A stretch of DNA of 64,000 nucleotides. Origin: Rosa chinensis (Eukaryota > Streptophyta > Magnoliopsida > Rosales > Rosaceae). How positions within the stretch are numbered: the first letter of the stretch is position 1; every line of letters begins with the position of its first letter. The DNA is taken from NCBI RefSeq assembly GCF_002994745.2, contig NC_037091.1:27844289-27908288 (forward strand), read 5' to 3'. The position numbers and the translations under genes are program-made. Below the pieces are notes generated by a model. The model made no database searches and was not told where the DNA came from. It saw nothing but the letters and a program-made list of their open reading frames with translations. Shown one piece after another: positions 1,874 through 55,068 of the stretch.

Positions 1874-3262
1874 TGTAACATCCCGTATCTTAATTTATCC
1901 GTTTACTAGTCATTTGGACGGTAAACGACAACTATTTTCACTTTTACTATCGTTTTGGTACTTTTAGTGGCCATAAAAGTTGACTTTTTGTTCGGATCAA
2001 AATTTGAGAAAATTTCCTTCATGAAAGTTGTAGAGGACGTTAAACCGAGCGCGTGCATATGTGGTACGTAAAAATCGGAGTTCGTATGTGAAAGTTATAA
2101 GTGAAAAGGTGAATTTACTGTTCATGGTAACTCTCTATATATAAGGAAACTTACCGAGGTAAGTTCCCATTTTCAGAACTTACCCTGACCCTCTCTCTCT
2201 CCTCTCCCTCTTCCCCCGCGTCGCCCTCTCTTTTTCTTTTTCGGATTTCTTCACCGTCCGGCGTCCGATTGATGTGATTCCAGTTGTCCTTGGACCGTCT
2301 CTTCCTCCTCTATATGATGGTATCAGTGGGTATCGGTGATTTGGCCGGAAAACCCCGAATTTATGCAATCATTGTTACTGTAGCAATTTGCTTCTCCGGT
2401 GAAATTCTCCAGTTTTCGGCTATCTCCGGCGGGAAAATTGGTTCTATTAGGAGCGCCTCGAGTCACTGATCATATTCCCTCAAGACTTCTAGTTGAAATT
2501 TCCACGTTTGGAAGGTGAATTTGAAGGATTTCCAAATTGGTGGGTTTGGAGATTTCCGGGTTTGTGTTCATCAGAAAAATTGGAGTACTTCAAGGTATTT
2601 TCTCACTTGGTCACAGTTATGAAAAATGGTTAGAATGTTGAGATGATTATGTGGTTGAAATTTGGTGGCCGGAGGAGGAGTTAGCCGCGCATGAACAGTG
2701 TCATGCGTGAACCGTGCGGTGCGTGAACAGTGGTGGTGTTTAAACAATAATTTAAATTCTATTTTTTTTAGCCCATTAAATCCTATAAATTGTGTAGAGC
2801 TTGTATGTGAAGTTTGGTAATTTTTGGGGAAACTTGGAATTAATTATGAATTTTTGAAGTTTAGGGTTTCGATTATCAAATTACGAGAATCCGACCGTCG
2901 GATATCTCTCGGTTTTTCCTTGGAACCTTTAAATTAACGAATTGGTATTAGTGGTATAATTTGGGCTGAATCCGAGAAGAATTGGGGAGATGATTTATGA
3001 GGATTCGATTTTGAGAATCGTATTTAATTAGAATAGTTATTCACAGAATATATTTATGTACAGGGCGTCGTACCGAGCTATTGCTCGATGACGGAACTCG
3101 AATGCATGATCGTCGGAATAGTACTGTGAGTGGACTTTTGTTTTTAAATAATGATGCATGCATTTATTTCTTAAAGTAATGCTCTAGTTATTTATTATAT
3201 TACATTTTGAGCATATAATTGTTTTCGGATTCCTGATTTTGATTTATCACGAGGAATTACTT
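1874..3262 (+). repeat. Older LARD LTR, left segment (split by the insertion at 3263)
   Basis: Begins TGTAACATCCCG right after the PPT. It carries the conserved U3 block seen in the other chromovirus-type LTRs of the window (W-box-like TTGACT near 1980, then a GAAAGTTGTAGAGG motif), a TATA box at 2136-2144 and a CT-rich stretch after it. The LTR resumes at 12280 and ends at 13680, about 2.79 kb in total. The donor-like GTGAGTGGAC lies at 3126-3135. The left part ends in TACTT, the duplicated target of the inserted element. The internal domain before it and the PBS after 13680 make this the middle LTR of a tandem. Confidence 0.85.
2136..2144 (+). promoter_or_regulatory. LTR TATA box
   Basis: TATATATAA lies about 260 bp into the LTR and is followed about 50 nt later by a long CT-rich tract (about 2190-2240), as in plant LTR promoters. 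Transcription would start near 2170, leaving most of the LTR downstream of the start. Confidence 0.6.
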
Positions 3263-3523
3263 TGTAACGTCCCGAACCTAAATTTACCAGTTTACAAGTC
3301 TTTCGATGGGTAAACGACATTTACATTTACTTTTTGGCTCCGTTTCGACATTTTAGGGGGCCCTAAAAGTTGACTTTTTGTTCGGGTCAAAATTTGAGAA
3401 AATTTCCTTCATGAAAGTTGTAGAGGACGTTAAACCGAGCGCGTGCATATGTGGTACGTAAAAATCGGAGTTCGTATGCGAAAGTTATAAGCGAAATAAG
3501 AAAGTTACTGTTTATGGTAGATT

Positions 3524-3530
3524 TATATAA
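3524..3530 (+). promoter_or_regulatory. LTR TATA box
   Basis: TATATAA, repeated at 9703-9709 in the 3' LTR, lies about 30-40 bp before the CT-rich leader. It implies a short U3 of about 290 bp and a transcript containing the hairpin array. Confidence 0.6.
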
Positions 3531-4507
3531 ATTTGAAAAGTTACTGTGGCCGGGTAACTTTTCTTTCTTTTCTCTCTCCTTCCCCCCGTGCTCTCTCAGT
3601 CTCTCTTCTGCAACTCTTCTGCAACTCTCTCTTTCTCTCTTCTGCAACCTCCTCTTTCACCACCTCTAGACCACCAAAAAGCGTCAAATCGGTGGCTACG
3701 GACTCGTCTTGACCTCCTCTTGGCCCCTACGGTGGTTGCTCACTGCGGCTTGGCCGGAAAACGACGTATTGGGTCCTTGAAGTTTACTGTAGCAGGTGAC
3801 CGTTGACCCGAATTCCGGCCACCTCCGGCGACAAAGCCAGGCTTTTTAGAAGCGTCTTGAGGCGTACTTGAAGCTCCCCAAATATCTTGAAGCGATTTGC
3901 AGCGTGGAGGAAGAAAGCATAATTAGAAAATTTTACTCTACTTCGGTTTGCTTAATTGTTCGGCCACTTCAAGGTATTTTCTGACTTTGTCACAGTTGAG
4001 AAAGTTATTGGAAATGTTGATATGATGCTGTGGATGAAATTTGGTGGCCGGAGGAGGAGTTGGCCGCCGCATGAACAGTGTCATCGCATGAATAGTGCGA
4101 TTGTGAATAGTGCGGTGTATGAACAGTGATTTATATTATGTTTTTTATTAGCTAGTTAAATCCTATAATTTTGGTAGAAGTTGAATATGTGAATTTGGTT
4201 GGAATTGGAGAAGTTTTTAATTGATTATGAATTTTTGAAGTTTAGGGTTTCGATTATCGAATTACGAGAATCCGACCGTCGGATATCTCTCGGTTCTGTC
4301 TTGGAACCTTTAAATTAACGAATTGGTATTAGTGGTATAATTTGGGTTGCATCCAAGGAGAAGTGGAGATGTAATTATGAGGAATTGATTTTAGGAATCG
4401 TATTAATTTGTCGAATAACTATTCACGGAATATAATTGTGTACAGGGCGATGTACCGAGCTATTGCTCGACGAAGGAACTCGTATGCATGATCGCCTAAA
4501 TAGTACT

Positions 4508-5713
4508 GTGAGTGGACATTTGTTTTTAAATTAATTCCGCATGCAGTATTATTATTATTTTCTTCCAAATGAGATTTAATTATGTTTTGAATATTTGAGA
4601 TTTAGTTTATCGAGATTTATTTATGGATTACGAGATTAGTATTGAAATTCCTTCCCGAGGGCTTTTAGTAGATTTTTTGAGATAGTCATTCATGAGTTAT
4701 TGAGTTGGGAAATGATTTTCGGGAAGTGAATGATTCAGAAAAATATTATGAGAATTATTGTTTTCGAATATCAGTTTTTATGAAAATATACGAGTGCGAG
4801 GGATTTAGCAAATATTTGAGCATGATTGATTTATCGAGATTTATTGGGTTTTGAATTCCGCACTTATCAGACTTGGGTTAGATGGAGTTTTCTTTCCGAA
4901 AGCAATTATTGAATTATAGAGCATGTGATTATGCTTTCGAGGATTTATTGAGATATCGAGGATTGAGTTAGTGAGTTATTACTGAGTTATGCTTTCGATG
5001 AATTAGTATTGATTTATTGAGGTAATATCAAGTTTCTTTCCGAAAGCAAGTGATTGAAAGAGGTTATTTTCAGTTCTTGAGGAGGCTATTCAGTTTATTA
5101 AGGAGGCCAGTTTTGGCGCATGCGTACAGTATCTAGTCGGCAGTCCCCTCTAGGTAATAGTTTGGTCGGCAGTCCCCTCCAGACTATATCCCGGTCGGCA
5201 GTCCCCTTCGGTGAGTCATCTAGTCGGCAGTCCCCTCCAGATGATAAGAGGTAGTTAGTCGGCAGTCCCGTCTACTACCTGTGGTTAGTCGGCAGTCCCG
5301 TCTACTACATGTGGCTAGTTGGCAGTCCCATCTATCCACCGCCTCCTATTCCGGTTGGCAGTCCCTTCCGATGCGTCATCTGAGTGGCAGTCCCTCCTAG
5401 ATGGCATGAGATGACTAGACAGCAGTCCTTTCTAGTCATCAAACGAGCCTCATGAAAAGGATGTTTTTATAAGGATTGAGGATGAGATTTTAAGAGATTT
5501 CAAGATATTCTTGTTACGTGATGGAGATTTCAGTAAAGAAGATGATTAAGAGTGTTTTCAAGATTTGTACTGCATGCGAGATTTTAGAGAATAACTTGGG
5601 AAAGCATTAAGTTTTACTTATTCATTTGAAATCACTAATTTTTCGTCCACTCACTCTAACGGATTTTAAATGTTTTCCCCTGGGCCCTTCGGTTTTAAAT
5701 GCCCAGTTTGCAG
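4508..5713 (+). other. Putative LTR leader intron
   Basis: Donor-like GTGAGT at 4508. Branch-like CTAAC at 5656-5660, then a pyrimidine-rich stretch and TTTGCAG before G at 5713. The body is AT-rich and contains the whole hairpin array. The same order occurs in the 3' LTR (10687 to 11892) and in related LTRs at 3126/13313, 28163/29121 and 53758/55068. The donor segment GTGAGTGGAC is the exact reverse complement of GTCCACTCAC (5645-5654), just before the branch-like site. Splicing is inferred; no transcript data are available. Confidence 0.5.
5130..5440 (+). repeat. Array of ten hairpins with constant loop and covarying stems
   Basis: Ten units each hold a loop close to TCGGCAGTCCCCT, mostly 13 nt, flanked by complementary arms that differ between units. 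Examples: unit 2 arms ATAGTTTGG (5157-5165) and CCAGACTAT (5179-5187); unit 5 GGTAG-TTAG and CTACTACC with one bulge; unit 7 GTGGCTAG and CTATCCAC with one mismatch; unit 10 GATGACTAG (5410-5418) and CTAGTCATC (5432-5440), a perfect 9 bp. Units 3 and 8 are weak (3-4 bp). The repeat unit is thus the loop, while the stems vary by paired changes. The array lies inside the putative LTR intron. Confidence 0.85.
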
Positions 5714-6097
5714 GCCAGTTTAGCTTGAGGTCGAGCGTACTTGGGGTTGAGGCATAGCTGTCATAGCTTCCGCATTATAAAAGCATCGGTCATTTATCTT
5801 GCTTTATATTCTCTTGTTCGCCTGTATATTAAATTGCTCTGATAACCTATGAGATTAATATTCTTAAATTCAGAATTGTTTATGAAATGAGATATGTGAG
5901 ATGTTGTGATATAGGGAGCAGGGTGGCTCCAGGAGAATAAGGATGGATGATTTAGAAGTGTTGATGTTTTTCTACAGGTTTTGGGTTGTCCATTTTTAGG
6001 GGAAGTTCTGTCAAATTTTTGGTAGAATTTCTTTTAAAGTGGGCCCCGCAGGGCCTCTTCGGATTTCAGGGTGAAAACCGGGGTGGGTCCTGTCAGT

Positions 6098-6110
6098 TGG
6101 TATCAAAGCA
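6098..6110 (+). other. Primer-binding site (initiator Met tRNA type)
   Basis: TGGTATCAAAGCA begins two bases after the LTR end. It matches the usual plant TGGTATCAGAGC PBS with one change (G to A). Minus-strand DNA synthesis starts here. Confidence 0.85.
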
Positions 6111-6186
6111 CTAGGTTGTAAGATTCTGTAGACTTGTTTCGATCTGGTTACCTTATATGCTTGATGTTACTCAGTACCTCCCGAGT

Positions 6187-6214
6187 GATGGCCCGACTGC
6201 AGCGGTTCCCCATC
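6187..6214 (+). promoter_or_regulatory. Leader hairpin with palindromic loop (dimerisation-signal-like)
   Basis: Outer stem GATGG (6187-6191) with CCATC (6210-6214), inner stem CCG (6193-6195) with CGG (6203-6205), and a seven-base loop containing the self-complementary CTGCAG (6197-6202). It lies about 90 nt after the PBS start. The same design occurs at 13772, 29650 and 55454; at 29650 the palindrome is CCGCGG. Retroviral dimer initiation sites have this form. Function here is inferred. Confidence 0.5.
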
Positions 6215-6253
6215 GTTTACTCTTCGGTGCTGAAGTATTCATCAAGTATGTAA
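6188..6253 (+). other. Conserved upstream ORF, 21 codons
   Basis: An ATG in the leader opens a frame starting MARLQRFPIV and stopping at TAA (6251-6253). The same 21-codon length recurs at 13773-13838 and 29651-29716 (MARPRRIPIV start); at 55455 the frame stops after nine codons. It precedes the gag start. It could be a regulatory uORF or a by-product of the conserved hairpin it overlaps. Confidence 0.35.
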
Positions 6254-9200
6254 GGTACGTGGTTAGTTGATTTTCCTTCAGGTGCTATGCCTCTTATACG
6301 CCGACCTCATAGGGATCTGTCTGCATATCAGATTGTTTAAGTGTCTTGCACCTTTTCATGGTGATGGTGATGTTAGATTACCTTACAGGGTTGAGTTATG
6401 CTATGAAATGTGATCCGAGGGAATGTGGTGGTTATCTCTCCCTCGATGCCAACAAATTTGTTGGGGTAAGGTTTAAGGTGCAAGACTGGAGTTCGATTTC
6501 GTGTTTGATTGTTAGAGTTGAGTGGGCATAGATTTGGGTTGTCTCAGTTTGCTATAAATTGCTTTAGAATCAGAATTGTTGATGGAAATGGAACTAGTAA
6601 TATTAGTGGTTCTGACGTTGAACCAAGTTTCAGGAGATGTGTTACGTGATGTGATATGGCATGTATGTGACATTTGTGATATCATTGATAGTTGTTGGAG
6701 ATTACTTGGAAATCATGACTGGTTATCTTGGCTCTTTGACCTAACCATGATATTTGGATTTTGTTTTGTTCGGATTGGAAAAAATTGATTTTTGATACAT
6801 TGACTTATAATTGATCCTTTTGAAGTTGTGGATCGTATTGAGTAAGGAGATAGACAGAATTTAAGTTTGATATAGTTTTATGTTTGAAACTTGAGTATTT
6901 AGTTGGACGCATAGAGCTTTACAGTCGAGTTATGATCTTTGCCAGTATTTAATTGAGAAGATGAGAAACAACTTTTGTATATGAGATTGTATCGATTTGT
7001 GTACTTAATTAGTTATCCGTTTTTGGCTTAAATGGTTGTACCTAAAATTGGAGAATAGCGGTAGTGATTTCGTTGGATATTTATAATGGTGCAAGTGGAA
7101 TTACTTGTGATACAGAGTATGATTTGAGTTATAAATTGTGGAACCTTGAAGGTTAATTGTGATAGACTCTTGGTGAAGTTTTTGTTAGACAGTTAGATTG
7201 TGATATTGTAAGAGTGGTTAGTGGAATAACTTTGAGGAAATAAGTTTCTCAGTTGGCTTCGGAAATATTTCAGATTAAGGTTTGACCAGAATTCTTATTA
7301 TATGTGGGTCAAACGTAATGCGGTTTGTCTTTGCAGTGACGTATTTCAACGGTGATTTAATTGTGGAGTTGGATCGCCAGGTGGTTGGATTAATTTCAGA
7401 TCTAGGTACCGCTTGGTGTGATACGAGATGTTGGACGAGTGTCTATTTTTCATCAAGGTTGTTGTTCGAGGAAAGACTCTGTGAACGGTGTATTGTTATC
7501 TAGGAAAATTGGTTGTTGCTTGAGTTAAATACATATACTAACAGATTGCTTTGAAGGAATTAAGTGAATTTTACTACCTTGGTACCGTTACTGGTGGTAA
7601 TGGGTTAAACAGTTTGAAATTTAGTTTTCACTTTGATCGATCTTTCTACCGTATGGTGACCCTTGGTTGGAGAAGTATAGAAAGCTGTTGGTACGATTGA
7701 TCTTCGGTCACCATCACGGGTTTATAAGTACGATGACTTGGCAAAATGTTGGAGTTGAGTTTGGAAATTATTTGTTTGGACTTGAGTTTTATCAAGGGTT
7801 TCAACTGACACTTGAAGTACTAGATTGTTGAGCGACTATGATTGAGTTGTGTTGTTGGATTTATGCTTAGCGAGATGAGGTTTGGGAAATTTTGGTGCAA
7901 TCTTAGTTAGCGCAGATTAGTTTTTGGAATTGCTGTTGTAGCTGAAATATAATTGAATAAGTGTTGTTAGAGGGCGGATCTCCAGCTACTTCATCCTCAG
8001 TTTAGCGATGACAGTATCGTTTGGGGATATCGGCTTTGAGCCATGCAAGGAGAGTTGGCTATACTCAAATACTTGCAAGATTGACGTTGATTATTGGAAT
8101 ATTATGGTTTGGAAACGCGGAGAAGAAAGAATTGACTACTTTGCTAGCAGTCTGGTACAGAAATTTTGAACATGAACAGGTATGCGAAATGTGTCGCTTT
8201 ATGGCCAGCAGGATATGTATCTAGAAGTTTCTCTAGTTGACTTAGTTGTCATCTCAAAGCTTTGATCAATGTTTAGTTGGGTATCAAAGTAGCGCAAAGG
8301 AAGTGTAGTGACCCTATAACCTTCATGATTAAGAACTTATAGGTTGGTTCGAGGCTACTCTTTGATATGCTTGACAACTGTGGGACCTCTACGTGCACGA
8401 CATTCGATCAAAAATCCAAGCACAAATAGACAAAGAGGAAGTGTGGTTTTTGTGGTTGCTAAGGAAATTGGTTGTTTCAGACATGTGGGTTATCAGTGAA
8501 CATCTTGTGGTGTTTTATTAACTGTTGGACTTTTCCTAAACCCGTGTACGAATTGAAATTGTTTTAAGTATGGGTAAATGTATTATCATGTTGTTGGTAA
8601 ACAAAGTGGATCTTCACTGTACGAGTTATATGAAAAAGAGTATGAATGCTACTATTCAAACTGAATAGTTTGTGATATTGATACCATGAGTCATCTGAAC
8701 TATTATTTAACCTAAATTTCTTGACGTCGAAGTTGTGTACTTGTGAGTATGTACTACTACATAGTTAGGTAAGACAAGGGTATCCAACTTGGAACATTGA
8801 TACATTTGGGGTTCTAAGTATATGTTTTTGGTTGCTTGTGTAATCGAGATTGTCGAGATTATCAGCTACTCCAGTCGTTGACTTAAGATTGCAAAGGGAA
8901 AACTAAATCCAAAGAAGATTTGATTTTCGTTATGCAGTTTCAAGGTGTGGTTCGTTCAAGTAACCGACCTTGATTTAGCCTTGAGTCTTTATTCTGAGAA
9001 TTTTAGTAGGTGTTTCTGCTCACATAGTTGAACCACTTACAGGTTGCTTCAAACATAATGGTTTGACGATATTCTCCCTTAGTTGTTAAGGACGGTCAGT
9101 AATGAGTGGAAGTAAATCTATCTATTAAGACACTGAATTTAGTAAGAACGCTGTGAGAATTATTCAGATCGCAATAATTGGCTAGATTTCAACTAGAGAA

Positions 9201-9404
9201 TTGTTTCTTATAAGGGTTGATCTCCATGTTCTAATTGGTCAAGTTTTGGATCAGTTTTGAAGGTAATTTCTACATGATTTGAGCAGACTTGCACATCTTT
9301 TCTGTGCATTATCATCGCCACAGCCGTACGATTGATGTGCTATTCATCTTCGTGACTGTTTACTATGGATTGGCGTGTGCACCCATCTCTACTTCAACAG
9401 TATG
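6254..9404 (+). other. Non-coding internal domain of the LARD
   Basis: The first part keeps a gag-like start (ATGCCTCTTATACGCCG near 6285). After it no frame exceeds about 75 codons, and no gag, protease, RT or integrase motif is readable on either strand. Large parts align by eye with 13839-14610, 21468-21885 and 1-1836. Retained similarity without coding capacity is what defines a LARD. Confidence 0.8.
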
Positions 9405-9441
9405 GAATTTCGAGGACGAAATTTTTATAAGGTGGGGAGAT
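9405..9441 (+). promoter_or_regulatory. Pre-PPT hairpin and polypurine tract
   Basis: AATTTCG (9406-9412), loop AGGA, CGAAATT (9417-9423), extendable by a G-T pair. The purine tract AAGGTGGGGAGA (9429-9440) precedes the 3' LTR at 9442. Confidence 0.8.
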
Positions 9442-12274
9442 TGTAACGTCCCGAACCTAAATTTACCAGTTTACAAGTCTTTCGATGGGTAAACGACATT
9501 TACATTTACTTTTTGGCTCCGTTTCGACATTTTAGGGGGCCCTAAAAGTTGACTTTTTGTTCGGGTCAAAATTTGAGAAAATTTCCTTCATGAAAGTTGT
9601 AGAGGACGTTAAACCGAGCGCGTGCATATGTGGTACGTAAAAATCGGAGTTCGTATGCGAAAGTTATAAGCGAAATAAGAAAGTTACTGTTTATGGTAGA
9701 TTTATATAAATTTGAAAAGTTACTGTGGCCGGGTAACTTTTCTTTCTTTTCTCTCTCCTTCCCCCCGTGCTCTCTCAGTCTCTCTTCTGCAACTCTTCTG
9801 CAACTCTCTCTTTCTCTCTTCTGCAACCTCCTCTTTCACCACCTCTAGACCACCAAAAAGCGTCAAATCGGTGGCTACGGACTCGTCTTGACCTCCTCTT
9901 GGCCCCTACGGTGGTTGCTCACTGCGGCTTGGCCGGAAAACGACGTATTGGGTCCTTGAAGTTTACTGTAGCAGGTGACCGTTGACCCGAATTCCGGCCA
10001 CCTCCGGCGACAAAGCCAGGCTTTTTAGAAGCGTCTTGAGGCGTACTTGAAGCTCCCCAAATATCTTGAAGCGATTTGCAGCGTGGAGGAAGAAAGCATA
10101 ATTAGAAAATTTTACTCTACTTCGGTTTGCTTAATTGTTCGGCCACTTCAAGGTATTTTCTGACTTTGTCACAGTTGAGAAAGTTATTGGAAATGTTGAT
10201 ATGATGCTGTGGATGAAATTTGGTGGCCGGAGGAGGAGTTGGCCGCCGCATGAACAGTGTCATCGCATGAATAGTGCGATTGTGAATAGTGCGGTGTATG
10301 AACAGTGATTTATATTATGTTTTTTATTAGCTAGTTAAATCCTATAATTTTGGTAGAAGTTGAATATGTGAATTTGGTTGGAATTGGAGAAGTTTTTAAT
10401 TGATTATGAATTTTTGAAGTTTAGGGTTTCGATTATCGAATTACGAGAATCCGACCGTCGGATATCTCTCGGTTCTGTCTTGGAACCTTTAAATTAACGA
10501 ATTGGTATTAGTGGTATAATTTGGGTTGCATCCAAGGAGAAGTGGAGATGTAATTATGAGGAATTGATTTTAGGAATCGTATTAATTTGTCGAATAACTA
10601 TTCACGGAATATAATTGTGTACAGGGCGATGTACCGAGCTATTGCTCGACGAAGGAACTCGTATGCATGATCGCCTAAATAGTACTGTGAGTGGACATTT
10701 GTTTTTAAATTAATTCTGCATGCAGTATTATTATTATTTTCTTCCAAATGAGATTTAATTATGTTTTGAATATTTGAGATTTAGTTTATCGAGATTTATT
10801 TATGGATTACGAGATTAGTATTGAAATTCCTTCCCGATGGCTTTTAGTAGATTTTTTGAGATAGTCATTCATGAGTTATTGAGTTGGGAAATGATTTTCG
10901 GGAAGTGAATGATTCGGAAAAATATTATGAGAATTATTGTTTTCGAATATCAGTTTTTATGAAAATATACGAGTGCGAGGGATTTAGCAAATATTTGAGC
11001 ATGATTGATTTATCGAGATTTATTGGGTTTTGAATTCCGCACTTATCAGACTTGGGTTAGATGGAGTTTTCTTTCCGAAAGCAATTATTGAATTATAGAG
11101 CATGTGATTATGCTTTCGAGGATTTATTGAGATATCGAGGATTGAGTTAGTGAGTTATTACTGAGTTATGCTTTCGATGAATTAGTATTGATTTATTGAG
11201 GTAATATCAAGTTTCTTTCCGAAAGCAAGTGATTGAAAGAGATTATTTTCAGTTCTTGAGGAGGCTATTCAGTTTATTAAGGAGGCCAGTTTTGGCGCAT
11301 GCGTACAGTATCTAGTCGGCAGTCCCCTCTAGGTAATAGTTTGGTCGGCAGTCCCCTCCAGACTATATCCCGGTCGGCAGTCCCCTTCGGTGAGTCATCT
11401 AGTCGGCAGTCCCCTCCAGATGATAAGAGGTAGTTAGTCGGCAGTCCCGTCTACTACCTGTGGTTAGTCGGCAGTCCCGTCTACTACATGTGGCTAGTTG
11501 GCAGTCCCATCTATCCACCGCCTCCTATTCCGATTGGCAGTCCCTTCCGATGCGTCATCTGAGTGGCAGTCCCTCCTAGATGGCATGAGATGACTAGACA
11601 GCAGTCCTTTCTAGTCATCAAACGAGCCTCATGAAAAGGATGTTTTTATAAGGATTGAGGATGAGATTTTAAGAGATTTCAAGATATTCTTGTTACGTGA
11701 TGGAGATTTCAGTAAAGAAGATGATTAAGAGTGTTTTCAAGATTTGTACTGCATGCGAGATTTTAGAGAATAACTTGGGAAAGCATTAAGTTTTACTTAT
11801 TCATTTGAAATCACTAATTTTTCGTCCACTCACTCTAACGGATTTTAAATGTTTTCCCCTGGGCCCTTCGGTTTTAAATGCCCAGTTTGCAGGCCAGTTT
11901 AGCTTGAGGTCGAGCGTACTTGGGGTTGAGGCATAGCTGTCATAGCTTCCACATTATAAAAGCATCGGTCATTTATCTTGCTTTATATTCTCTTGTTCGC
12001 CTGTATATTAAATTGCTCTGATAACCTATGAGATTAATATTCTTAAATTCAGAATTGTTTATGAAATGAGATATGTGAGATGTTGTGATATAGGGAGCAG
12101 GGTGGCTCCAGGAGAATAAGGATGGATGATTTAGAAGTGTTGATGTTTTTCTACAGGTTTTGGGTTGTCCATTTTTAGGGGAAGTTCTGTCAAATTTTTG
12201 GTAGAATTTCTTTTAAAGTGGGCCCCGCAGGGCCTCTTCGGATTTCAGGGTGAAAACCGGGGCGGGTCCTGTCA
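9442..12274 (+). repeat. LARD 3' LTR
   Basis: Near-identical copy of 3263-6095 at offset 6179, ending CCTGTCA and followed by the TSD TACTT. Visible differences from the 5' LTR include a change in hairpin unit 8 (GGTTGGCAG to GATTGGCAG), which weakens an already weak stem, and one in the last 20 bp. Confidence 0.93.
11309..11619 (+). repeat. Hairpin array, 3' LTR copy
   Basis: Same ten units as 5130-5440 shifted by 6179, with all strong stems unchanged. See that entry for arms and loops. Confidence 0.85.
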
Positions 12275-13680
12275 TACTTTCAGTGATGAGTTTCATGAAG
12301 TGATTATGAATTATTCCGGTTGTGATTTTTGGATATTAATTTTGTTATGCCCGGATTCGAAACTTTGAATTATGTTGTTTTTCAACTAAGTATTTTCCAT
12401 GGTATTTTCCAAAATGAAATATTAGTTCATTATTGAACTTCCTTGCTTATTCATTATTGACCCGAGAATATTTTGGCATGTGGGACACGCCGTTGAGTTA
12501 TTGATCTTTCCTATTTATTTATCGACTTTCGATTTTGGCATTGGGAATGCCTTGATGATGATTTTAGAATTGGTTTTGTTTCGGTTTACGGGGATTACGA
12601 TTTATTATTATTTCTCGCCTTTCTGCTATTGATTTGGAGATATTTTTGGCGTGTGGGACACGTCGTTGGAAATTCTTTTACGAGAGATGGGGGAAGCCTT
12701 ATGTATTTTGGATTTACTGGATTTTCGGTTATGTTTCCCTGTGCCATACTGAGGGGTGATTTTATCATGCTAGCATTGATTTTTCCGCCTTTGTGGCGCG
12801 GTGATGGGATCACCGTAGCCCTCCGCCTTTGTGGCGCAGGTTACTGTCTCTGTGACAGTAATTCTGTAGCTCAGTATCCTATCGCTACACTTAGTGGCGT
12901 AAGGGTATATTACGGGAGTAATGGGAGTACTTTAGCCTGAGAGGCTCATTTGTATGGCTATCATCTTCCCCTACTTATACTATTTTTGACTAGCGGGGAC
13001 TAGTCTGAGTTTTCTTAACCAGCGGGGCTGGTCTTATATTTTCGAGTATTGAAATTTCAATCTTTTACTCTGTTGTTGTGGCTAGCGGGGCTAGTCGGTT
13101 TTCTGGAGTTCAACGTTTTTCGGATTACTTTCTTAAGTGTTTTATATATGTTGCATGCATCCGGATTTTTTTATATATCGAAAAATGTGGGAAAGTATGA
13201 AGTTTTATTTTGTTTTATTCATATTAAATTATTTATTTTTGTCCACTCACGCTAACGTGTTTTAAATTACTTTTCCCCTGGGCCCTTCGGTTTTCAAATG
13301 CCCAGTTTGCAAGCTAGGTTAATTGAGGTCGGGCATACATGGAGTCGAGGCATAGCCAACAGCATTGCTTCCGCGTACTCATTCTATTTCTGTGTTCTTT
13401 ACTACCTAATTGAATAGTATTGCTCTGATAACCTGTGAAATTAATCTTGTAATGTGGGTTGAGATTGTTATTTGTGAAATTGGAAGTTGATGTTATTTGG
13501 GGAGCAGGGTGGCTCCAGGAGAATAAGGATGGATGATTTAGAAGTGTAAATGTTTTCTACAGGTTTTGGGTAGTCCATTTTTAGGGGAAGTTCTGCCAAA
13601 TTTTTGGTAGAATTTCTTCTAAGGTGGGCCCCGCAGGGCCTTTTCGGATTTCGGGGTGAAATTCGGGGCGGGCCCTGTCA
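12275..13680 (+). repeat. Older LARD LTR, right segment
   Basis: TACTT (12275-12279) is the second TSD copy of the inserted LARD. The older LTR continues from 12280 to the terminal CCTGTCA at 13680. It shares its 3' end with the young LARD LTR: the TTTTAGGGGAAGTTCTG block, the GGGCCCCGC block, GTCCACTCAC (13241) and CTAAC (13252). Its middle is unrelated in sequence and carries GGG-loop and CGGGG-loop hairpins instead of the GGCAGTCCC array. Confidence 0.85.
12475..13096 (+). repeat. Hairpin array with GGG and CGGGG loops (older LARD LTR)
   Basis: Triloop GGG stems: GGCATGT/ACACGCC (12475-12491, one mismatch), GGCATT/AATGCC (12537-12551), GGCGTGT/ACACGTC (12648-12664, one G-T), GGTGAT/ATCACC (12800-12814). 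Other stems: TTACTGTC/GACAGTAA (12841-12861), ATTAC/GTAAT (12909-12922), AGCCT/AGGCT (12934-12946). Loop CGGGG or CGGGGA stems: GACTAG/CTAGTC (12988-13005), ACCAG/CTGGT (13018-13032), GGCTAG/CTAGTC (13080-13096). Loops repeat and stems differ with paired changes. Confidence 0.75.
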
Positions 13681-13682
13681 GT

Positions 13683-13695
13683 TGGTATCAGAGCA
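13683..13695 (+). other. Primer-binding site (initiator Met tRNA type)
   Basis: TGGTATCAGAGCA two bases after the older LTR end at 13680; exact plant consensus core. Confidence 0.85.
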
Positions 13696-26917: not shown

Positions 26918-27175
26918 TGTTATGTCCCGAACCTAGAATTAACGATTTACTCACTATTTGGACGGTAATTGTCGAATACTTTCAATTTTTACTTTTTATC
27001 GATATTTTAGTGGCCCTAAAAGTTGACTTTTTGTTCGGGTCAAAATTTGAGGAAATGTTCTTCGTGAAAGTTGTAGAGGACTTTAAACCGAGCGCGTGCA
27101 TATGTGGTGCGTAAAAATTGGACTTAGTATGTGAGAGTTATAGCCAAAAATGTAGAAGTTACTGTTCATGGTAAT

Positions 27176-27190
27176 TTATATATATATATA
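27176..27190 (+). promoter_or_regulatory. LTR TATA run
   Basis: An uninterrupted TA run about 260 bp into the LTR, followed at about 50-60 bp by the CT-rich leader; same layout as at 2136 and 3524. Recurs near 34743 in the 3' LTR. Confidence 0.6.
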
Positions 27191-28162
27191 GAAGTTACTG
27201 TTGGTAGATTTCCATTTTCGGAAAATCTACCTAGCCCCCCGGTAACTCTCTCTTCTCCTTCCCCGATCCTTCTCCCTTCCGGCCCGATTTTCTTCCTTCG
27301 ATTTCTCCCTCCTCCGGCCGACCCACGACGCAATCCGCCCATCCCCAAGCTCGTCTCCTTCCCCTTGTCACATCTATGGAGGTATTTGGCGGAGATTTGG
27401 CCGGAGAAGCTCGATTTTGAGCGGGGGAAATTACTGTAGCAGTTCGCCACTATTGTCGATTTCCGACGATTCCGGCCATCTCCGGTCACCATATCGGCGT
27501 CGAAGGCTCGGTTTTCGACGGAGATCATTTCGCCCCTAGCCTCGAATCAATATTTGCCGTGTAGAGGCCGAATCGATAACCTAGGGTTCTTGAATTTCTG
27601 GGTTATCTTCGCCGGCCGAATTCGACCATTTCCAGGTAAAATTGGGGTGTGTTGTAGTTGAGAAAATTAATCAATGGGTCGAGTTGTAGCTATACATGGA
27701 ATTTGGTAGCCGGTGGTGGAGGTTGGTACCGGCGCATGGGTGCCACGCGCCGCCACTGTTGGTGGCGCGTGAGACAGTCTTTGGCCGGACTTTAACTTCT
27801 GTTGTTGAGATAATTAATCAATTATACATCTAGTTTCATAATTGCAGCTTTGTGATAGAATTGGAGATGGAATGAATATGGATTTTGATGTTGTTCAATG
27901 GTGGAATTGTTAATTGAATTGCGAGGAATCCATCCATCGGATTTCCTTGATTCGGCCCTAAAGCCCATACATTAAGGGAATAATATTAGTGAAGAAGATT
28001 GGGAGGATTTGGGCAAATAATGATAATGTTAGGGTTGGTTTTATTTATCGTAATTTAGTTTTCCATCCAGTAATTATGGGTTTACGAATGTTATATTGTA
28101 CAGGACGTGAGGAGGATTCCCTCGAGGAGGGTTCGGATCGACGGCAGGCTTAGCCGTACACT

Positions 28163-29121
28163 GTGAGTGGAGTTTTGTTCTTGAATAAGTGATGCATGCA
28201 TTTATTTATTAAAGCATGTTCTATTTAATTAACATATTATTTTCCGAGCATAGGAATTTGATTACAATTTATCTCATGGATTTGTTTCCAATAATGATTT
28301 TGTGAAGTATTTATGATTTATACCGGTTGTGAGCTTCGGTTATTAAGTTGTTATGCTCGGATTCGAATTTATATTTGATGTTGATTTTTCGACGAATTGT
28401 TTTCGATGTGATTTCCGGATTTATACCATTTATATTATATTTATATTCGTCGATTTGAGACTTTATTTGCAAATTGAATTTTGTTGGAGTAAATCTCCAT
28501 GTCTATTTATCGATTTTCGATTTTAGCATTGGGAATGCCTCATTGACAATCTACTTATTTCTGTAGCGTGTGGGACACGCTGTTAGTTTATACGACTTTA
28601 CGAGAATTTCCGGGTACGGTTGGGAATCGTACCCGTGTTTTCTTTATTCGTGGGATATGGGGAAGCCTTACAGATTTATTGGATTTGAATAGTTTTTACC
28701 CACCATACCTGGGTCGCTATATTTTATTGCTAGCTAGCCTATTAGTACTCCTCCCTGCTTACTATGTGTTTGTGGGTGAGTAAGAGCAGAGCATGGGATG
28801 CTCCAGAGTGTGGGACACTCCGACCCGAGCATGGGAGGCTCCTTTCTTTGGTATGGTGAAATCTCTTCCCCATATTTTATCGTTACTTGACTAGCGGGCT
28901 AGTCTGTTTTCTTTTAACCAGCGGGGCTGGTATGTTTTTCACGAGTTTTAAATTTAAAGAAATACGTTTTATAACGTTGCATGCATCGAGTTTTTTTATA
29001 ATGTAAATTTGTGGGAAAGTATAAACTTTTCTTCCTTTATACTTATTTATTTTGTCCACTCACGCTAACGTTTTTATGTACATTCCCATGGGCCCTTTGG
29101 TTTCAATTGCCTAGATCGCAG
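28163..29121 (+). other. Putative LTR leader intron (chromovirus)
   Basis: GTGAGT donor at 28163, GTCCACTCAC (29054-29063), CTAAC branch-like site (29065-29069), and an acceptor-like ATCGCAG ending at 29121. Nine of the ten donor bases pair with GTCCACTCAC. The intron body holds the hairpin array. Inferred from motif order only. Confidence 0.45.
28525..28931 (+). repeat. Hairpin array with GGG and CGGGG loops (chromovirus LTR)
   Basis: GGG triloops: GCATT/AATGC (28526-28538); AGCGTGT/ACACGCT (28565-28581, 7 bp perfect); CGGGTACGGTT (28611-28621) with AATCGTACCCG (28625-28635), 11 bp with one G-T; GAGCAT/ATGCTC (28789-28803); GAGTGT/ACACTC (28806-28820); GAGCAT/AGGCTC (28827-28841, one mismatch). 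CGGG(G) loops: GACTAG/CTAGTC (28889-28904) and ACCAG/CTGGT (28917-28931). Compared with 12475-12664 the outer pair switches G-C to A-T, a compensated change. Confidence 0.8.
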
Positions 29122-29569
29122 CGTTGCTGACCGGCTTAGGAGTGGAGGCTAGCACCACCTTTGCCATCTATCCACAGTAGGTTATTTGTTAACCTACTTT
29201 ATGTATTACATTTCGAGGGTGTTCTTTAGGTTGCTCTGATTACTTTAAAAGGGTGGATTTATACATTTGTATAATTATGAGTGTATGGGAGTTGTATAAT
29301 ATTGGAGAAAGTTGAAAGATTTGATTTGCTGGGTTGTAATTTATATAAATGGTTATGTTTGTGTAGTACGAAGTTTATACTTGGAATTTGCGGATTGTTG
29401 CTTGGAAGCAGGGTGGCTTCAAGCATAGAAATTATTATACTTAGAAGTGTTTTCAGCAGGTTTAGGGTTGTCCACTTTTAGGGGAAGTTCTGTCGAATTT
29501 TTTCGAAAAGTGGGCCCCGCGGGTCCATCTTGGAGTTAGGAGGGTAATTCTGGGGTGGGTCCTAATAGT

Positions 29570-29775: not shown

Positions 29776-30909
29776 ATGCCTCCTAGACGTCGGACTCGTG
29801 GGGAGACCCCTCCCATTCCAGGAGATGAGAATGCTCCTAGAGGAATAGCGGAAGCTTTGGGACGTATTGTTCAGCAGTTGACTGCAGCGCTTCCGGGCTC
29901 CAGAACCGACTTTACCATGGAGCGAGCGAAGAGGCATGGAGCTTATAGCTTCTCCCATGCTCCTGATGCTATGGATGCTCAAAATTGGCTGAACAAAATG
30001 GAGAGGGTCTTTACTCAGATTCATTGCCCGGAGCACCGAAAAGTGGGTTTAGCAGTGGACTTCCTTGATGGTGTGGCTTTTGATTGGTGGGCTTATACTA
30101 GCCGGGAATTAGGGAATGATGGCCCAATCACTTGGGAACAGTTCAAGGAACATTTTACTGGGCGGTATTATGGTACAGCTATCCGTGACAGGATGAAATA
30201 TGAGTTCCTACATTTAGAGAAGGGGGACATGACTGTTACGGAGTTTGAGCAGCGGTTCACCCAGTTAGCTCAGTTTGTGCCTGATCTGGTTGGCACTGAG
30301 AGCGAACGGATCTACAGGTTTGTTGATGGATTGGGGTGCTAGTAATTACCGGCACTAAAATTGTTAATTGTTAACTGCCTGTAACGTGCTAGTAATTACC
30401 CTGATGGATCTACAGGTTTGTTGATGAATTGCAGTTAACAGGAGTGCCATTTAATACTTATCCTGAGGCAGTTAATGCTGCTCTGCGATTGGAGACTATG
30501 TTTCTATCTGGTGTCCGACCTCGAGATTTGGGTGGCCCCAGTCAGGGTCCATCCAAGAAGGCTGCTTCTACCTCTGGGTCTGGATCTTCAGTAGGCAGTG
30601 GACATAGTAGTGGATCTAGTGCCGGATATCGTTTTAGACGCGGGGCGTATCAGGAGATTCACTCGGGGACAGTCTAGTGGACGCCAGTTTGGGCAGAGCA
30701 GGGCTGGTTTTAGTAGTCAGCACAGGACTCCAGCAAGTCAGCCAGCCCAGTTTGGGCAATACCAGCCAGTTGGGTGCTTTGAGTGTGGACAGCGGGACCA
30801 CTTTAGGAGGGATTGCCCTCTATTGACCCAGAGAGTTGCATCTACCCCTTTTCAGACCGCTGGTCAGTCATCTGCCTGTACTTCTACTGGTGGTACTTGC
30901 TTCTTCTAG
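29776..30909 (+). pseudogene. gag: Chromovirus gag, disrupted
   Basis: Starts MPPRRRTRGETPP at 29776. The capsid-like region includes FDWWAYTSRELG, FKEHFTGRYYG and MTVTEFEQRFTQL, typical of plant gypsy Gag. The frame stops at 30340-30342 because of a 98-bp insertion (30329-30426), resumes in another frame (VNAALRLETMFLSGVRP) to 30677, then shifts again and includes one CCHC zinc knuckle, CFECGQRDHFRRDC (about 30775-30816), before stopping at 30909. Gag forms the cytoplasmic particle and binds the RNA. As it stands no full Gag can be made. Confidence 0.85.
30329..30426 (+). repeat. 98-bp insertion with duplicated flanks inside gag
   Basis: A 21-bp word (starts GGATCTACAGG, ends TTGATG) occurs at 30308-30328 and 30406-30426. 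Inside, GTGCTAGTAATTACC occurs at 30336-30350 and 30386-30400. Removal of 98 bp would rejoin the gag frame, so it is a later addition, probably templated repair filler. Confidence 0.7.
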
Positions 30910-31489
30910 CGGTACCCGTATCAGTTCAGCAGCTCGTGGCAGCCCGCAGCGGGGTAGGGGTCAGAGAGGACGTCCCACCACTCATGCTAGGTTGCATGCC
31001 ATGACTCAGCAGGAGGGTCGCGACTCACCAGATGTTATTATTGGTACGTTGTATGTTTTTGGTCAGCCTGCTTATACTTTAATTGATCCTGGTGCTTCGC
31101 ATTCTTTTATGTCAAGTAGATTTGCATGTTTTGCTAATGTGCCATCATCGCTTCTTATTGGTGAATGGTATGTATTATTGCCTGCGGGAGCGTCGTTTAA
31201 GATAGAGTGGGTTTTTAGAGGTTGTGGTGTTTTGATTGAGGGTGTTAATTTGGAAGTTGATTTAATTCCTTTAGATCTTGTTGAATTTGATGTAATCTTG
31301 GGGATGGAGTTTTTAGCGACTCACCGGGCCAATATTGATTGCTTCCGTAAGATTGTGGTTTTTCAAAGTCCAGGGAAGCAATTAATTACCTTTCAGGGTG
31401 ATCGTAATGTTCTAGCTTCTTGTATGATTTCCGCTTTGATCGCTGAGAAGCTGTTGAATAAGGGGAGTCAGGCTTATTTGCACATGTAG
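30890..31489 (+). pseudogene. Chromovirus protease region, frame-shifted from gag and pol
   Basis: A frame with TRISSAARGSPQRGRG, DVIIGTLYVFGQPAY and the aspartic protease core LIDPGASHSFMS (about 31070-31105). The DPG variant is common in plant gypsy. It then reads GVNLEVDLIPL and FDVILGMEFL, the usual second half of the retropepsin. It is out of frame with the zinc-knuckle frame upstream and ends at TAG (31487-31489). A one-base loss near 31478-31480 would explain the shift to the pol frame. The protease would cleave the polyprotein in the particle. Confidence 0.8.
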
Positions 31490-34400
31490 TGGATACTAAC
31501 AGGGAGGAGTTGAGTATTAGAGAGATACCGGTGGTTAGGAAATTTCCAGATGTATTTCCTGATGAATTACCTGGTTTACCCCCTGTTAGGGAGATAGATT
31601 TTACTATCGATTTGCTCCCTAGCACCACCCCCATATCTTTGGCACCATACCGGATGGCTCCAGCTGAATTAAAAGAGTTGAAGACCCAGTTACAGGAATT
31701 AGTGGATAAAGGATTCATCCAATCTAGTGTCCCTTGGGGTGCCCCGGTTTTATTTGTTAAGAAGAAGGATGGCTCTTTAAGGTTGTGCATTGATTATCGG
31801 AAGTTGAATAGGGTTACTGTGCAGAATAAATACCCTTTGCCTCGTATTGACGATCTCTTTGATCAGTTGAGAGGAGCCAAGGTCTTTTCTAAAATCGATT
31901 TGAGATCGGGTTATCATCAGTTGCGGATAAGGGAGTCTGATATACCCAAGACTGCTTTTCGATCACGTTATGGTCACTATGAATTCAGGGTAATGCCGTT
32001 TGGGTTAACTAATGCTCCTGCAGCTTTTATGGACCTCATGAATCGAGTGTTCCGCCCTTACCTTGATCGTTTCGTGATTGTGTTCATCGATGATATCTTG
32101 GTGTACTCTAAGGACGATAGTCAACACGCCAAACATCTAAGAATTGTATTGCGAACCTTGAGGGAGGCCCAGTTGTATGCGAAGTTCAATAAATGTGAAT
32201 TTTGGCTTAACAGCATAGGATTCTTGGGTCATATTGTTTCTGCAGAAGGTATTAGTGTGGACCCTCAGAAGGTAAAAGCGGTGTTAAATTGGGAAAGACC
32301 TACTTCAGTGACAGAGATTCGTAGTTTCTTGGGTTTGGCAGGTTATTACCAGCGATTCGTACAAGATTTCTCAAGGATTGCAACTCCTCTTACTAGGTTG
32401 ACTAGGAAGGGTGTGAAGTTTGTTTGGTCAGAAGAGTGTGAGCAAAGTTTTCAAGAGCTCAAGAGGCGTTTAACTAGTGCTCCGGTCCTAGCTTTGCCTG
32501 ATGATAGTGGGGAATATGTGGTATACAGTGACGCCTCGAGGGAAGGCTTGGGTTGTGTTCTGATGCAACATGGAAAAGTGATTGCCTATGCCTCTAGACA
32601 ATTGAAGCCGCATGAGTTAAATTATCCGACACATGACCTTGAATTAGCTGCGGTAGTACTTGCACTTAAACTTTGGAGGCACTATTTATATGGAGCTCGA
32701 TGTCAAATCTTTACGGACCACAAGAGTCTTCAATATTTACTTACACAAAAAGAGATAAATTTGAGGCAAAGAAGATGGTTGGAGTTGATTAAAGATTATT
32801 ATTGTACGATCGAGTATCATCCGGGAAGGGCCAATGTGGTAGCTGACGCTCTTAGTAGGAAATCTTATCCTTCCCTGTTACCCTCCCCTTCCTTGTCACA
32901 TTTGAGAACAGTCCGGGTTCCACTTCTTTATGAATTGCGAGCTACAGGAGTTAATTTGGAAGTGACTAATGAATCTGCAGCCTTAATAGCCAGTTTTCAT
33001 GTGAGACCAATCCTTATTGACAAAGTACGAGAGGCACAACTACATGATGAAGCTCTACAAGAATTGAGAGAGGTAGTGGAGAATGGAGCTAGAGAAGACT
33101 TTATTGTCAGAGGGGATGGAGCCTTGATGAGCGGGAATAGAATTTGTGTACCCGATCAGGATGATCGTAAACAGGAAATACTAGAGGAGGCTCATAGTTC
33201 TGCTTATGCCATGCATCCTGGTGGAACCAAAATGTATCGGACTCTTAAGGAATACTACTGGTGGCCTAACATAAAGAGGGAAATTGCAGCTTATGTAAGA
33301 AGATGTCTAGTGTGTCAACAAGTGAAAGCAGAAAGACAAAAGCCCTCAGGTTTGTTACAGCCATTACCGATACCAGAATGGAAGTGGGAGCACATTACTA
33401 TGGACTTCGTATCAGGGTTACCATGTAGTCGTAATGGTCATGATAGCATTTGGGTAATTGTGGACCGGCTTACTAAATCTGCACATTTCTTACCTGTCAG
33501 CAAGACTTATAAAATGGATAAATATGCAGAGTTATACATGAATGAGATAGTGAAACTCCACGGCACACCCGTCTCTATTACTTCTGATCGTGATCCTCGT
33601 TTCACTTCAAAGTTCTGGCGTGAGCTGATGGAGGCTTTGGGCACTCAGTCTCAGTTTAGTACCGCGTTTCACCCGCAAACAGATGGACAGACGGAAAGGA
33701 CCATTCAAACATTGGAAGACATGTTGAGAGCTTGTGTTTTGCAATTCAAAGGGAATTGGGATAATCATGTCACATTGATAGAGTTTGCGTATAATAACAG
33801 TTATCACTCCAGCATTGGCATGGCTCCTTATGAAGCCCTTTATGGTAAGCAATGTCGTACCCCTCTATGTTGGAATGAAGTAGGAGAAAGGAAACTTATT
33901 GGTCCAGAATTGGTACAAATTACAACTGAAAAGGTCAAAGTGATCAAGGAAAAACTTAAAACGGCTCAGAGTAGACAAAAGAGTTATGCAGATAACAGAA
34001 GGAAAGATTTGGAGTTTCAAGTAGGTGACTGGGTATTCTTGAAGCTATCTCCATGGAAGGGTATTGTAAGATTTGGGAAACGCGGGAAGCTTAGCCCTAG
34101 ATACATTGGACCATATGAAATCACGGAGCGAATTGGTGAAATTGCTTATCGTTTAGCACTACCTCCAAGATTATCCAGAGTACATGATGTCTTCCATGTC
34201 TCCATGCTTCGCAAGTATGTTGCTGATCCCTCTCATGTTCTACAAGAGCAACCTATCCGATTGAGGGAAGACTTGACATATGAAGAAAAACCGGTTCAAA
34301 TACTTGATAGGAGGGAGAAGATACTCAGGAACAAAACAATACCCTTGGTCAAGGTGCTTTGGAGTAATCATATGGTAGAAGAGGCTACTTGGGAACCAGA

Positions 34401-34503
34401 AGAGCAAATGAGAAGGCAGTATCCTCACCTATTTTCTAGCAGGTATGTTAATTTCGAGGTCGAAATTTTTTTAAGGGGGGAGATTGTTACGTCCCGAACC
34501 TAG
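31489..34503 (+). CDS. pol: Chromovirus pol: RT, RNase H, integrase, chromodomain
   Basis: A 1004-codon open frame. [11 protein letters not shown] (99-107), catalytic D137 in KIDLRSGY and D201/D202 in [10 protein letters not shown]. RNase H: D348, E385, D410 and D453 (YSDAS, DLELA, FTDHKS, VADALS). Integrase: zinc ligands H569, H576, C606 and C609; catalytic D639, D700 and E736 with the canonical 35-residue spacing; GPY motif at about 874. A chromodomain-like end (about 929-982: [26 protein letters not shown]) marks a Tekay/Del-type chromovirus; such domains steer integration to heterochromatin. The frame start is nominal, since pol is normally made as a fusion with gag-protease. The frame reads through the PPT into the 3' LTR. 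All catalytic residues are present. Confidence 0.93.
34450..34484 (+). promoter_or_regulatory. Pre-PPT hairpin and polypurine tract (chromovirus)
   Basis: AATTTCG (34450-34456), loop AGGT, CGAAATT (34461-34467), then purine-rich AAGGGGGGAGA before the 3' LTR at 34485. It overlaps the pol reading frame, but the hairpin is kept in non-coding relatives. Confidence 0.8.
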
Positions 34504-52440: not shown

Positions 52441-52734
52441 TGTGATGCCCCAGAAATTCGTATTTATTTTCCGAGGATTTTCCGGAATCTAAATTGTGAT
52501 TTTTGGACGTTTCGTGGCTCGTGGATGGAGCGGAAGTGTTTCGGGCGAATAATTATTTGAAAAGTATGGTTTTAGGGGGTTGCCAAAGGTTGACTTTTTA
52601 TACGTTGGGATTCTCCGAAAACTTCCTTCACGAAAGTTGTAGAGCGCGTCGTTACGAGTTCGTGGACATGTGGAACGCGAGAATCGGAGTTCGTATGAGA
52701 AAGTTATGGCTAGCGGAAGAAGTTTCCATTTTAG

Positions 52735-52742
52735 TATATATA
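52735..52742 (+). promoter_or_regulatory. LTR TATA box
   Basis: TATATATA followed by the CT-rich tract 55-60 bp downstream; repeated at 57839-57846. Confidence 0.6.
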
Positions 52743-53757: not shown

Positions 53758-55068
53758 GTGAGTAATCTCACGAAGTTCATTTCACGAACGGGAATACCCT
53801 TATTGTTTTGAGAGTTATTTAGTTAACTACAAACTATAGATGGTATTAGTGGCACTTTAGAGTAGATGATTACGTGTGTGTATATATATATTATGGGATG
53901 TATATATATACATACGTATTCATGTATTAGTAGATATATGTTTACGTGAAATATATATGTTTTGGGTGGTTTGTGGATTTGTGAAAACAATATGCATGAA
54001 ATGATGCTTTTTATTGTTTTGGGGTGTGGCTTTTGGAAAACAAATGATTTGTGGAAATGATTGATTTCGATTTGTTTTGAAAAGCGTTGAGATTTGAGAA
54101 AAGTGTTGAGATTTGGGTATGAAAACAATAGGCATGAATTGATGCTTTTTATTGTTTTGTGTTATGGCTTTTTCGGAAAACAATAATTATGGAAATGTTG
54201 ATTTCGATTGTTTTCAAAAGCGTTGTGATTTGTGTAACATTTTGGGTCCAATGCGACTCCTTTAATGTTTTGCTCCAAGGGACATTGCGGCCCGAGGATC
54301 GAAGGTCTGAGACCTTGGGCAGAATACCAGGTGACCACGTCTTTGGCCGGACGAGTGGTTACGTTTTTCAGTTAGAGCTCTAATCTGTCTGCCATATAGG
54401 TAATTCATGGGGTAACGGGAATTGGTTATTTACAACTCATGACATTACGTATTTTTAGGGAACAAGGTGTGAGTTGCTTCCTTATTAATGGTTTTTAAGG
54501 GGACAAGGTGTGAGTTGTTTTCCTTATTAACGTTTTGATAGAAATCAAGGTGTGAGTTGCTTTCTATGGTACGATTATGGTACATTTGATAGGAAACAAG
54601 GTGTGAGTTGTTTTCTATGTTTTACTGATAGAAATCAAGGAGTGAGTTGTTTTCTATGTTTTACTGATAGAAATCAAGGAGTGAGTTGCTTTCTATGTTT
54701 TACTGATAGAAATCAAGGTGTGAGTTGCTTTCTAGGGTACGCTTATGGTACAACTGATAGAATTCAAGGTGTGCGTTGTTTTCTATGTTTTATTGATAGA
54801 ATTCAAGTGTGGGTTGTTTTCTATGTTTCGTTTTAAAAGGAAACAAGGTGTGAGTTGCTTTCTTTTATTTCGATTTGAAAGGAAATTAAAGTGTGAGTTA
54901 TTCTCCTTTATTTCGTGTTTTAAGGAATCAAAGCGTGAGTTGTTTTCCTTATTTTTGGCGTGAGTTGTGTGTGGTTTGAGTTACTCATACGGGCTTGCAA
55001 AAGCTTACCGGGTTTGTTGTGTGGCAACCCGGTGCACCATTCCAACGGTGTAGGGGTTAATCCTGCAG
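53758..55068 (+). other. Putative LTR leader intron (gag-only element)
   Basis: AAG before GTGAGT at 53758 is a strong donor. The acceptor-like TCCTGCAG ends at 55068, preceded by GGTTAAT. Donor bases GTGAGTAAT (53758-53766) pair with GTTACTCAT (54980-54988), seven Watson-Crick and two G-T pairs. Body: AT-rich stretch and the 12-unit hairpin array. Second copy 58862-60172. Splicing is inferred. Confidence 0.5.
54456..54960 (+). repeat. Array of about twelve hairpins with AAGGTGTGAGTTG-type loop
   Basis: Loop core CAAGGTGTGAGTTG is nearly constant; the arms differ. Examples: TAGGGAA/TTCCTTA, ATAGAAA/TTTCTAT, ATAGGAAAC/GTTTTCTAT, AAAAGGAAA/TTTCTTTT, TAAGGAA/TTCCTTA. Arm changes are compensated or become G-T pairs. 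Central units (54590-54830) are closer tandem copies, showing local amplification. Repeated at 59560-60064. Confidence 0.8.

Follow-up and report, generated by a model that had tools for sequence, protein, structure and literature searches.

In the window, by which we mean the whole stretch of 64,000 nucleotides of Rosa chinensis DNA that was analysed, a young LTR retrotransposon without evident coding capacity carries in each of its LTRs an array of ten units with the loop core GCAGTCC. Across copies of this element the pairing of the stem arms is mostly conserved, and pairs covary beyond what phylogeny accounts for. Arrays built in the same way, but with unrelated loops (GGG and GTGTGAG), occur at a similar place in the LTRs of two further families of the window, which is a new finding. 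Our tentative reading, held at somewhat less than even confidence, is that the array is a selected cis-acting structural signal in the LTR of a non-coding Ty3/gypsy-type retrotransposon.

The array lies in an element with the following parts, positions being those of the window:

3258..3262, + strand: left copy of the target-site duplication, TACTT
3263..6095, + strand: 5' LTR, 2833 bp, TG...CA, a direct repeat of 9442-12274
6096..9441, + strand: internal region, no evident coding capacity (stop-to-stop frames of at most 76 aa)
6098..6109, + strand: primer-binding site TGGTATCAAAGC, which we take to be of the initiator-Met tRNA type
9431..9440, + strand: polypurine tract GGTGGGGAGA
9442..12274, + strand: 3' LTR, with the second array copy inside
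12275..12279, + strand: right copy of the target-site duplication, TACTT

The marks of an LTR retrotransposon are thus all present: two TG..CA LTRs, TACTT on both sides, the primer-binding site at 6098 and the polypurine tract at 9431-9440. The LTR aligns at 63-73%, in three stretches, with the LTR of a coding element of the window (26918-29567), and the host of the array is a non-autonomous LTR retrotransposon, probably of the Ty3/gypsy type. Its two LTRs (3263-6095 and 9442-12274, both 2833 bp) are 99.75% identical. Stop-to-stop frames longer than 76 aa are absent from the internal 3.35 kb, which leaves the element without gag-pol of its own. It appears to sit in the LTR of a relative, because both flanks resemble its own LTR and a primer-binding site is found at 13683. 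Near the LTR end, positions 5888-6037 fold strongly (z -4.8, sense), and 13475-13624 in the relative does likewise (z -4.6), perhaps as a structure near the primer-binding site. On contig C31 (G000, C31:22646-77325) near-identical copies of the GCAGTCC element and of the third family described below are spaced as in the window, which makes C31 a possible allele or duplicate of the region.

The first-pass annotation had placed a ten-hairpin array in the 5' LTR, with a constant loop and a different stem in every unit. The array and two of its units are:

5130..5440, + strand: ten-unit array with loop core GCAGTCC in the 5' LTR
5157..5187, + strand: unit 2, arms ATAGTTTGG/CCAGACTAT, nine pairs including one G-U
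5410..5440, + strand: unit 10, arms GATGACTAG/CTAGTCATC, a perfect 9-bp stem
11309..11619, + strand: the same ten-unit array in the 3' LTR, from core positions (LTR offset 6179)

Ten GCAGTCC cores are indeed present in the 5' LTR (5140, 5169, 5198, 5227, 5262, 5292, 5322, 5358, 5387 and 5422), and a second set of ten lies within 11319-11601 of the 3' LTR. In the genome searched (515 Mb, 53 contigs) the core TCGGCAGTCCC occurs 1,767 times (854+913), against 27 times (12+15) for the reversed pattern. The constant loop and the covarying arms hold up, but the variety of stems was overstated. Units 3-4 resemble units 8-9, and units 5, 6 and 7 resemble one another, so that there are about six independent stem types, and about eight of the ten units form good hairpins. 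Without a bulge, units 3 and 8 (cores 5198 and 5358) reach only 3-4 bp (-2.5 and -1.5 kcal). The shuffling of arms between units that the annotation had proposed comes out clearly: with the ten true arm pairs the folding energy is -57.6 kcal, with permuted arms -18.6±7.4 kcal, and one permutation in 20,000 is equally good. Only five of the ten 5' arms have their own 3' arm as best partner, because of the duplicated units; elsewhere the arm of a related unit scores higher. As a whole the array folds better than dinucleotide shuffles (z -4.07 sense, -2.69 antisense; 0 of 100 shuffles as low on each strand). Against the array as a row of local hairpins, the minimum-energy fold of the entire sense array pairs units 4 and 9 together and has no local hairpins there. 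Scanning the window for hairpin clusters gave none at a strict threshold, the GCAGTCC array included; at a laxer one the array is among the best 25 places of the window and is not the top scorer.

A 336-base array query gave 1,314 first-look candidates in the genome, 40 of which were scored. We parsed 80 arrays (60 distinct), then a further 40 to reach 100 distinct and a further 20 to reach 120; they were taken from the first sites listed on contig 1, from the best DNA matches and from hits to one older unit, and form a non-random sample. Between unit classes pairing is conserved: 23 representatives were drawn from the 60 distinct arrays parsed first, and of their 184 pairs 99 are Watson-Crick, against 69.6±7.2 with permuted arms (5/100,000). 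For the outer pairs alone of these representatives the count is 52 of 115 against 32.0±5.3 (15/100,000). Within classes, several pairs of the 100 distinct arrays exist in alternative forms: F pair 8 is GC in 48 or AT in 33 of 87 units, G pair 1 is GC in 56 or AT in 20 of 80, E pair 8 is GC in 24 or AT in 5 of 36, and A pair 2 is AT in 51, GC in 24, GT in 6 and AC in 1 of 82. The loop can change over a large part of an array, as is seen in eight arrays (L107, L108, L113, L126, L130, L131, L139 and L142) with the variant loop CAGTACCC in many of their units. We also looked for coding members with the GCAGTCC loop among four long stretches beside older arrays and rejected them as candidates: L079 and L080 match the non-coding interior of the element, L081 and L082 do not, and the frames in these stretches, where scanned, belong to other things. 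In L080 (4207-9805), broken caulimovirus-like pieces (movement protein, coat, RT, RNase H) adjoin the internal sequence of an element copy.

Changes were placed on trees of 112 of the 120 arrays, namely those with at least four classified units, after the removal of 103 hybrids, 27 units without a class and 24 second copies. Eight unit classes with 67 pairs were counted, leaving out the weakly paired C and C2, the one-base-deleted E/F and the shifted D2. The covariation test is our own simulation and not R-scape; it deals the changes of a column to the branches by load, and its units were picked by likeness to known arms. An excess of compensatory over other change in a multi-copy alignment was what the first-pass annotation had staked its claim on, and the array tree bears it out with 12 same-branch Watson-Crick doubles against 2.7±1.7 expected (0 of 500 simulations as many). 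Slid partners give 0-1 doubles per shift (six shifts, 43-67 pairs). On a tree from the flanking LTR sequence the doubles number 26 against 3.8±1.9 (0 of 500), with 0-2 for slid partners. At least one Watson-Crick double change against the majority pair is found in 13 of the 67 stem pairs of the 112 arrays. Each of the 13 consists of two transitions; in 11 a majority GC is replaced by AT. Seven of the 13 rest on one array each, most of these arrays being heavily mutated. Tested singly, A2, E8, F8 and G1 each reach p 0.007-0.03, uncorrected for 67 tests. A count of alternative-pair cells is weaker, a point against the claim (125 against 44.9±26, with a maximum of 166 in 300 simulations), because most such cells derive from few old splits. 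A comparison of conservation between array and flanks (stems ~0.038, loops ~0.044 and flanks ~0.08-0.10 changes per cell) was set aside, because likeness had guided the choice of units and the flanks are only roughly aligned.

Selection for structure, one of the two explanations offered by the first-pass annotation, is the better reading of this compensatory excess. The other, a copying process that preserves or corrects inverted repeats, keeps some standing through the uniform double transitions and the hybrid units. Here palindrome-correcting template switches in reverse transcription or replication would have made the arms complementary, and recombination through the identical loops would have shuffled and multiplied the units, all without selection. 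Hybrids that join two units within the loop are frequent, with 80 among the 884 units classified in 100 arrays; some copies have the series C-D-E-F twice; and the flank tree yields more doubles than the array tree, a pattern expected from exchange between lineages. Loop recombination, however, breaks stems. One-sided intermediates exist as well (the GT and AC forms of A pair 2), the common covarying classes differ by single pairs instead of whole arms perfected at once, and two other families keep the design with other loops. We consider copying alone unlikely.

Hybrids also count against a selected structure, and so do the mismatches that are common in numerous subfamilies, young ones included (F pair 4, D pair 5). 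With ten units in an array, the loss of one may be tolerated; selection may just as well be weak at present. Mismatches and hybrids across so many subfamilies are what would be expected if the stems had been selected in a protein-coding ancestor and were now decaying, but the compensated pair types of F pair 8, G pair 1, A pair 2 and E pair 8 divide subfamilies within the family, and a mere relic seems to us very improbable.

The level at which the pairing acts, RNA or DNA, was approached through the strand. On the array tree, single changes from a Watson-Crick pair lead to G·U 111 times and to A·C 60 times (p 0.00012), with 32 pairs going that way against 10, and the flank tree gives 125 against 62. 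A per-haplotype count without a tree gives 65 G·U against 56 A·C, which speaks against sense RNA. By ancestral base the flanks have no C>T/G>A bias. In the CHH context C>T against G>A is 0.101 against 0.062 in the upstream flank, 0.095 against 0.074 in the downstream flank, 0.038 against 0.023 in unpaired arms, 0.040 against 0.025 in paired arms and 0.049 against 0.055 in loops. This bias is thus also found outside the stems, so the G·U excess is no proof of selection on RNA. With the context control mixed, we set it aside as proof of sense RNA. In the CHG context C>T and G>A are balanced in the flanks (0.098 against 0.093 upstream and 0.097 against 0.091 downstream) but not in the paired arms (0.082 against 0.049; unpaired arms, with few sites, 0.097 against 0.024), which leans towards sense RNA.

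The strand test therefore gives no clean RNA signal, and this raises the question whether the units are palindromes at the DNA level, that is, inverted-repeat binding sites or cruciform DNA in U3, enhancer-like and with pairing kept for DNA symmetry. Both strands of the array fold. In 150-nt windows over the array the antisense strand folds no worse than the sense strand, a point against the sense-RNA reading, and in sliding fold z-scores the array does not stand out on one strand. Tandem repeats of U3 with a role in transcription are described (PMC3601003). The placing of the array depends on which of two candidate promoter sites is used:

3524..3531, + strand: TATA-like TATATAAA, LTR +262, with a CT-rich tract next at 3558-3617
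5776..5781, + strand: second TATA-like site, TATAAA, 319 nt before the LTR end

If transcription started from TATAAA, the array would belong to U3; 38 of the 96 copies examined have a TATA-like site at roughly this distance from the array. The other LTRs, however, have no TATA-like site at -319; theirs near the LTR end are at -225 in the coding relative and at -177 in the third family. What all three full LTRs have in common is a TATA-like site between +260 and +297 and, after it, a CT-rich tract in the range +296 to +329, a match that is weakened by the ten TATA-like sites of the third-family LTR. These sequence elements make plausible a transcription start at about +295 with a transcribed leader. 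A further argument against DNA symmetry is that the constant part of the array is the non-palindromic loop and the symmetric part is what varies. DNA palindromes are to us rather unlikely. Separately, the block 3351-3538 (LTR +89 to +276) is common to the LTRs of all three families at 64-71% identity.

The other LTR families of the window have these arrays of like design:

12538..13095, + strand: GGG-loop hairpins beyond the right end of the element, in a stretch taken to be the 3' part of the relative's LTR (primer-binding site 13683)
28525..28935, + strand: GGG-loop hairpins (AGCGTGT-GGG-ACACGCT, GAGTGT-GGG-ACACTC) in the LTR 26918-29567 of a coding Ty3/gypsy-type element
54450..54955, + strand: array of ~40-bp repeats with the loop AAGGTGTGAGTT (GTGTGAG) in the LTR 52439-55400 of a gag-bearing element; second copy 59554-60059

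The coding relative has protease, RT, RNase H and integrase at 30836-34503, with Ty3 as best PDB match and a Chromo domain score of 19.9 bits, below the cut-off of 25.1. Its LTR (26918-29567) contains seven perfect hairpins with a loop of three, five of them GGG and with five different stems (shuffles: mean 0.07, maximum 1 in 200), and a stem score of at least 5 is found at 7 of 47 GGG sites against 0-2 sites for each of 11 other triplets. The stretch 12275-13680 likewise has seven, five of them GGG (shuffles: mean 0.02, maximum 1 in 200). The same scan finds one such hairpin in the LTR of the GCAGTCC element and none in the third-family LTR 52439-55400. In the third family, which has a gag with four zinc-knuckle stretches at 55907-57109, the outer stems include AAGG/CCTT, ATAG/CTAT and AAAAG/CTTTT. 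Permutation of its arms, with 12 of 13 units used, gives 69.5 against 58.0±3.5 (8 of 20,000 as good), and with eight further copies, giving 27 distinct arm pairs, 142.5 against 125.4±4.8 (3 of 20,000). Of its 1,004 first-look candidates in the genome 40 were scored. The GCAGTCC array lies 965-655 nt before the LTR end, the arrays of the coding relative and the third family 1036-632 and 950-445 nt before it, and the array at 12538-13095 lies 1142-585 nt before it. Like rows with different loops at about the same place of the LTR suggest a structural signal that is kept by these elements. In the third-family LTR we also observed strong local folding at 53264-54238 (+825 to +1800), in several windows more on the antisense strand, with z down to -7.7.

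What such a signal might do can be considered from the side of the element. It codes for nothing evident and borrows all its proteins, and therefore only cis-functions can hold it under selection. The candidates are the promoter, the ends, the priming sites and whatever lets a foreign Gag take the RNA of the element. The array would be transcribed within the element RNA, perhaps in a leader if the promoter lies near LTR +260 and the leader runs to the primer-binding site, and otherwise at the 3' end of the RNA. Once folded, this RNA would show many copies of one G-containing loop, the exact sequence of the stems being irrelevant. Many loops with an unpaired G on stems of free sequence have the expected look of a many-site protein tag. 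The most likely use would be such a tag for Gag when genomic RNA is selected or dimerised, so that the array perhaps serves packaging or dimerisation. The zinc knuckles of retroviral nucleocapsid are described as binding the exposed guanosines of hairpin loops, and the nucleocapsid of MuLV did not bind isolated SL-C or SL-D, only a larger unit with a UCUG linker (PMC7599994). Hairpins with conserved GACG loops, a pair of them in the dimerisation region of MuLV, act in the dimerisation of gammaretroviral RNA (PMC5874298). Barley BARE2, which lacks Gag, is packaged in trans, and two TATA boxes serve the transcription of BARE (PMC3735527). A point against a shared Gag tag is that the loop of the GCAGTCC element differs from the GGG loop of the one coding relative that we found. 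The array RNA could also face the host, acting in stability, export, translation, escape from or triggering of small-RNA silencing, or binding of a host protein. A transcribed LTR and a family-specific loop are compatible with this, but as the element encodes no evident protein, control of translation is improbable, and we regard host-facing functions together as quite unlikely.

Non-autonomous elements with long LTRs are known as the LARD type. The element described here resembles them and BARE2 in being non-coding or Gag-less and mobilised in trans; BARE2 is a copia element, unlike the Ty3/gypsy-type element here, and the literature found by our search describes no such hairpin array for either. 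Retrozymes, too, are plant LTR elements that are non-autonomous and have structured RNA in their LTRs. They are described as containing a hammerhead, whereas across 3200-12400 no Rfam family reaches its curated score; three weak matches were obtained, none of them a hammerhead, the best at 21.6 bits against a curated 100. The tandem-repeat enhancers in U3 of retroviruses and of the plant retrotransposon Tnt1 share with the array that they are tandem repeats in an LTR; here, by contrast, the loop is constant and the arms covary. Closest in form are the SL-C and SL-D hairpins of MuLV leaders, with neighbouring hairpins, a conserved GACG loop and a position in the leader region (PMC5874298). There are two hairpins there and ten here, and the function shown there is proposed here by inference. 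The transposon-derived stem-loops described for enod40 (PMC10578108) are a different thing from the LTR arrays. Constant-loop hairpin arrays in LTRs are absent from the titles and abstracts found among open-licence PubMed Central papers, a set with most subscription journals outside it, and of 108 papers that contain the loop letters, the 20 titles listed are all unrelated to LTRs. This is weak evidence for novelty.

If the structural reading is extended to plant long-LTR Ty3/gypsy elements in general, such elements would carry a family-specific hairpin-array address at a fixed place before the primer-binding site, with one loop repeated on freely varying stems; the identity of the loop would tell Gag or another factor acting in trans which RNA to take, and non-coding families would carry the address that some coding family reads. 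We offer this as a speculative and rather improbable generalisation. How plant LTR retrotransposons choose their RNA, and how they share their machinery with non-coding families, is a little known field. The arrays also show that a structured repeat can hide behind a plain tandem-repeat annotation. With three loop types in one 64-kb window, there is now a concrete and countable candidate signal, which can be searched for across plant genomes and tested by binding.
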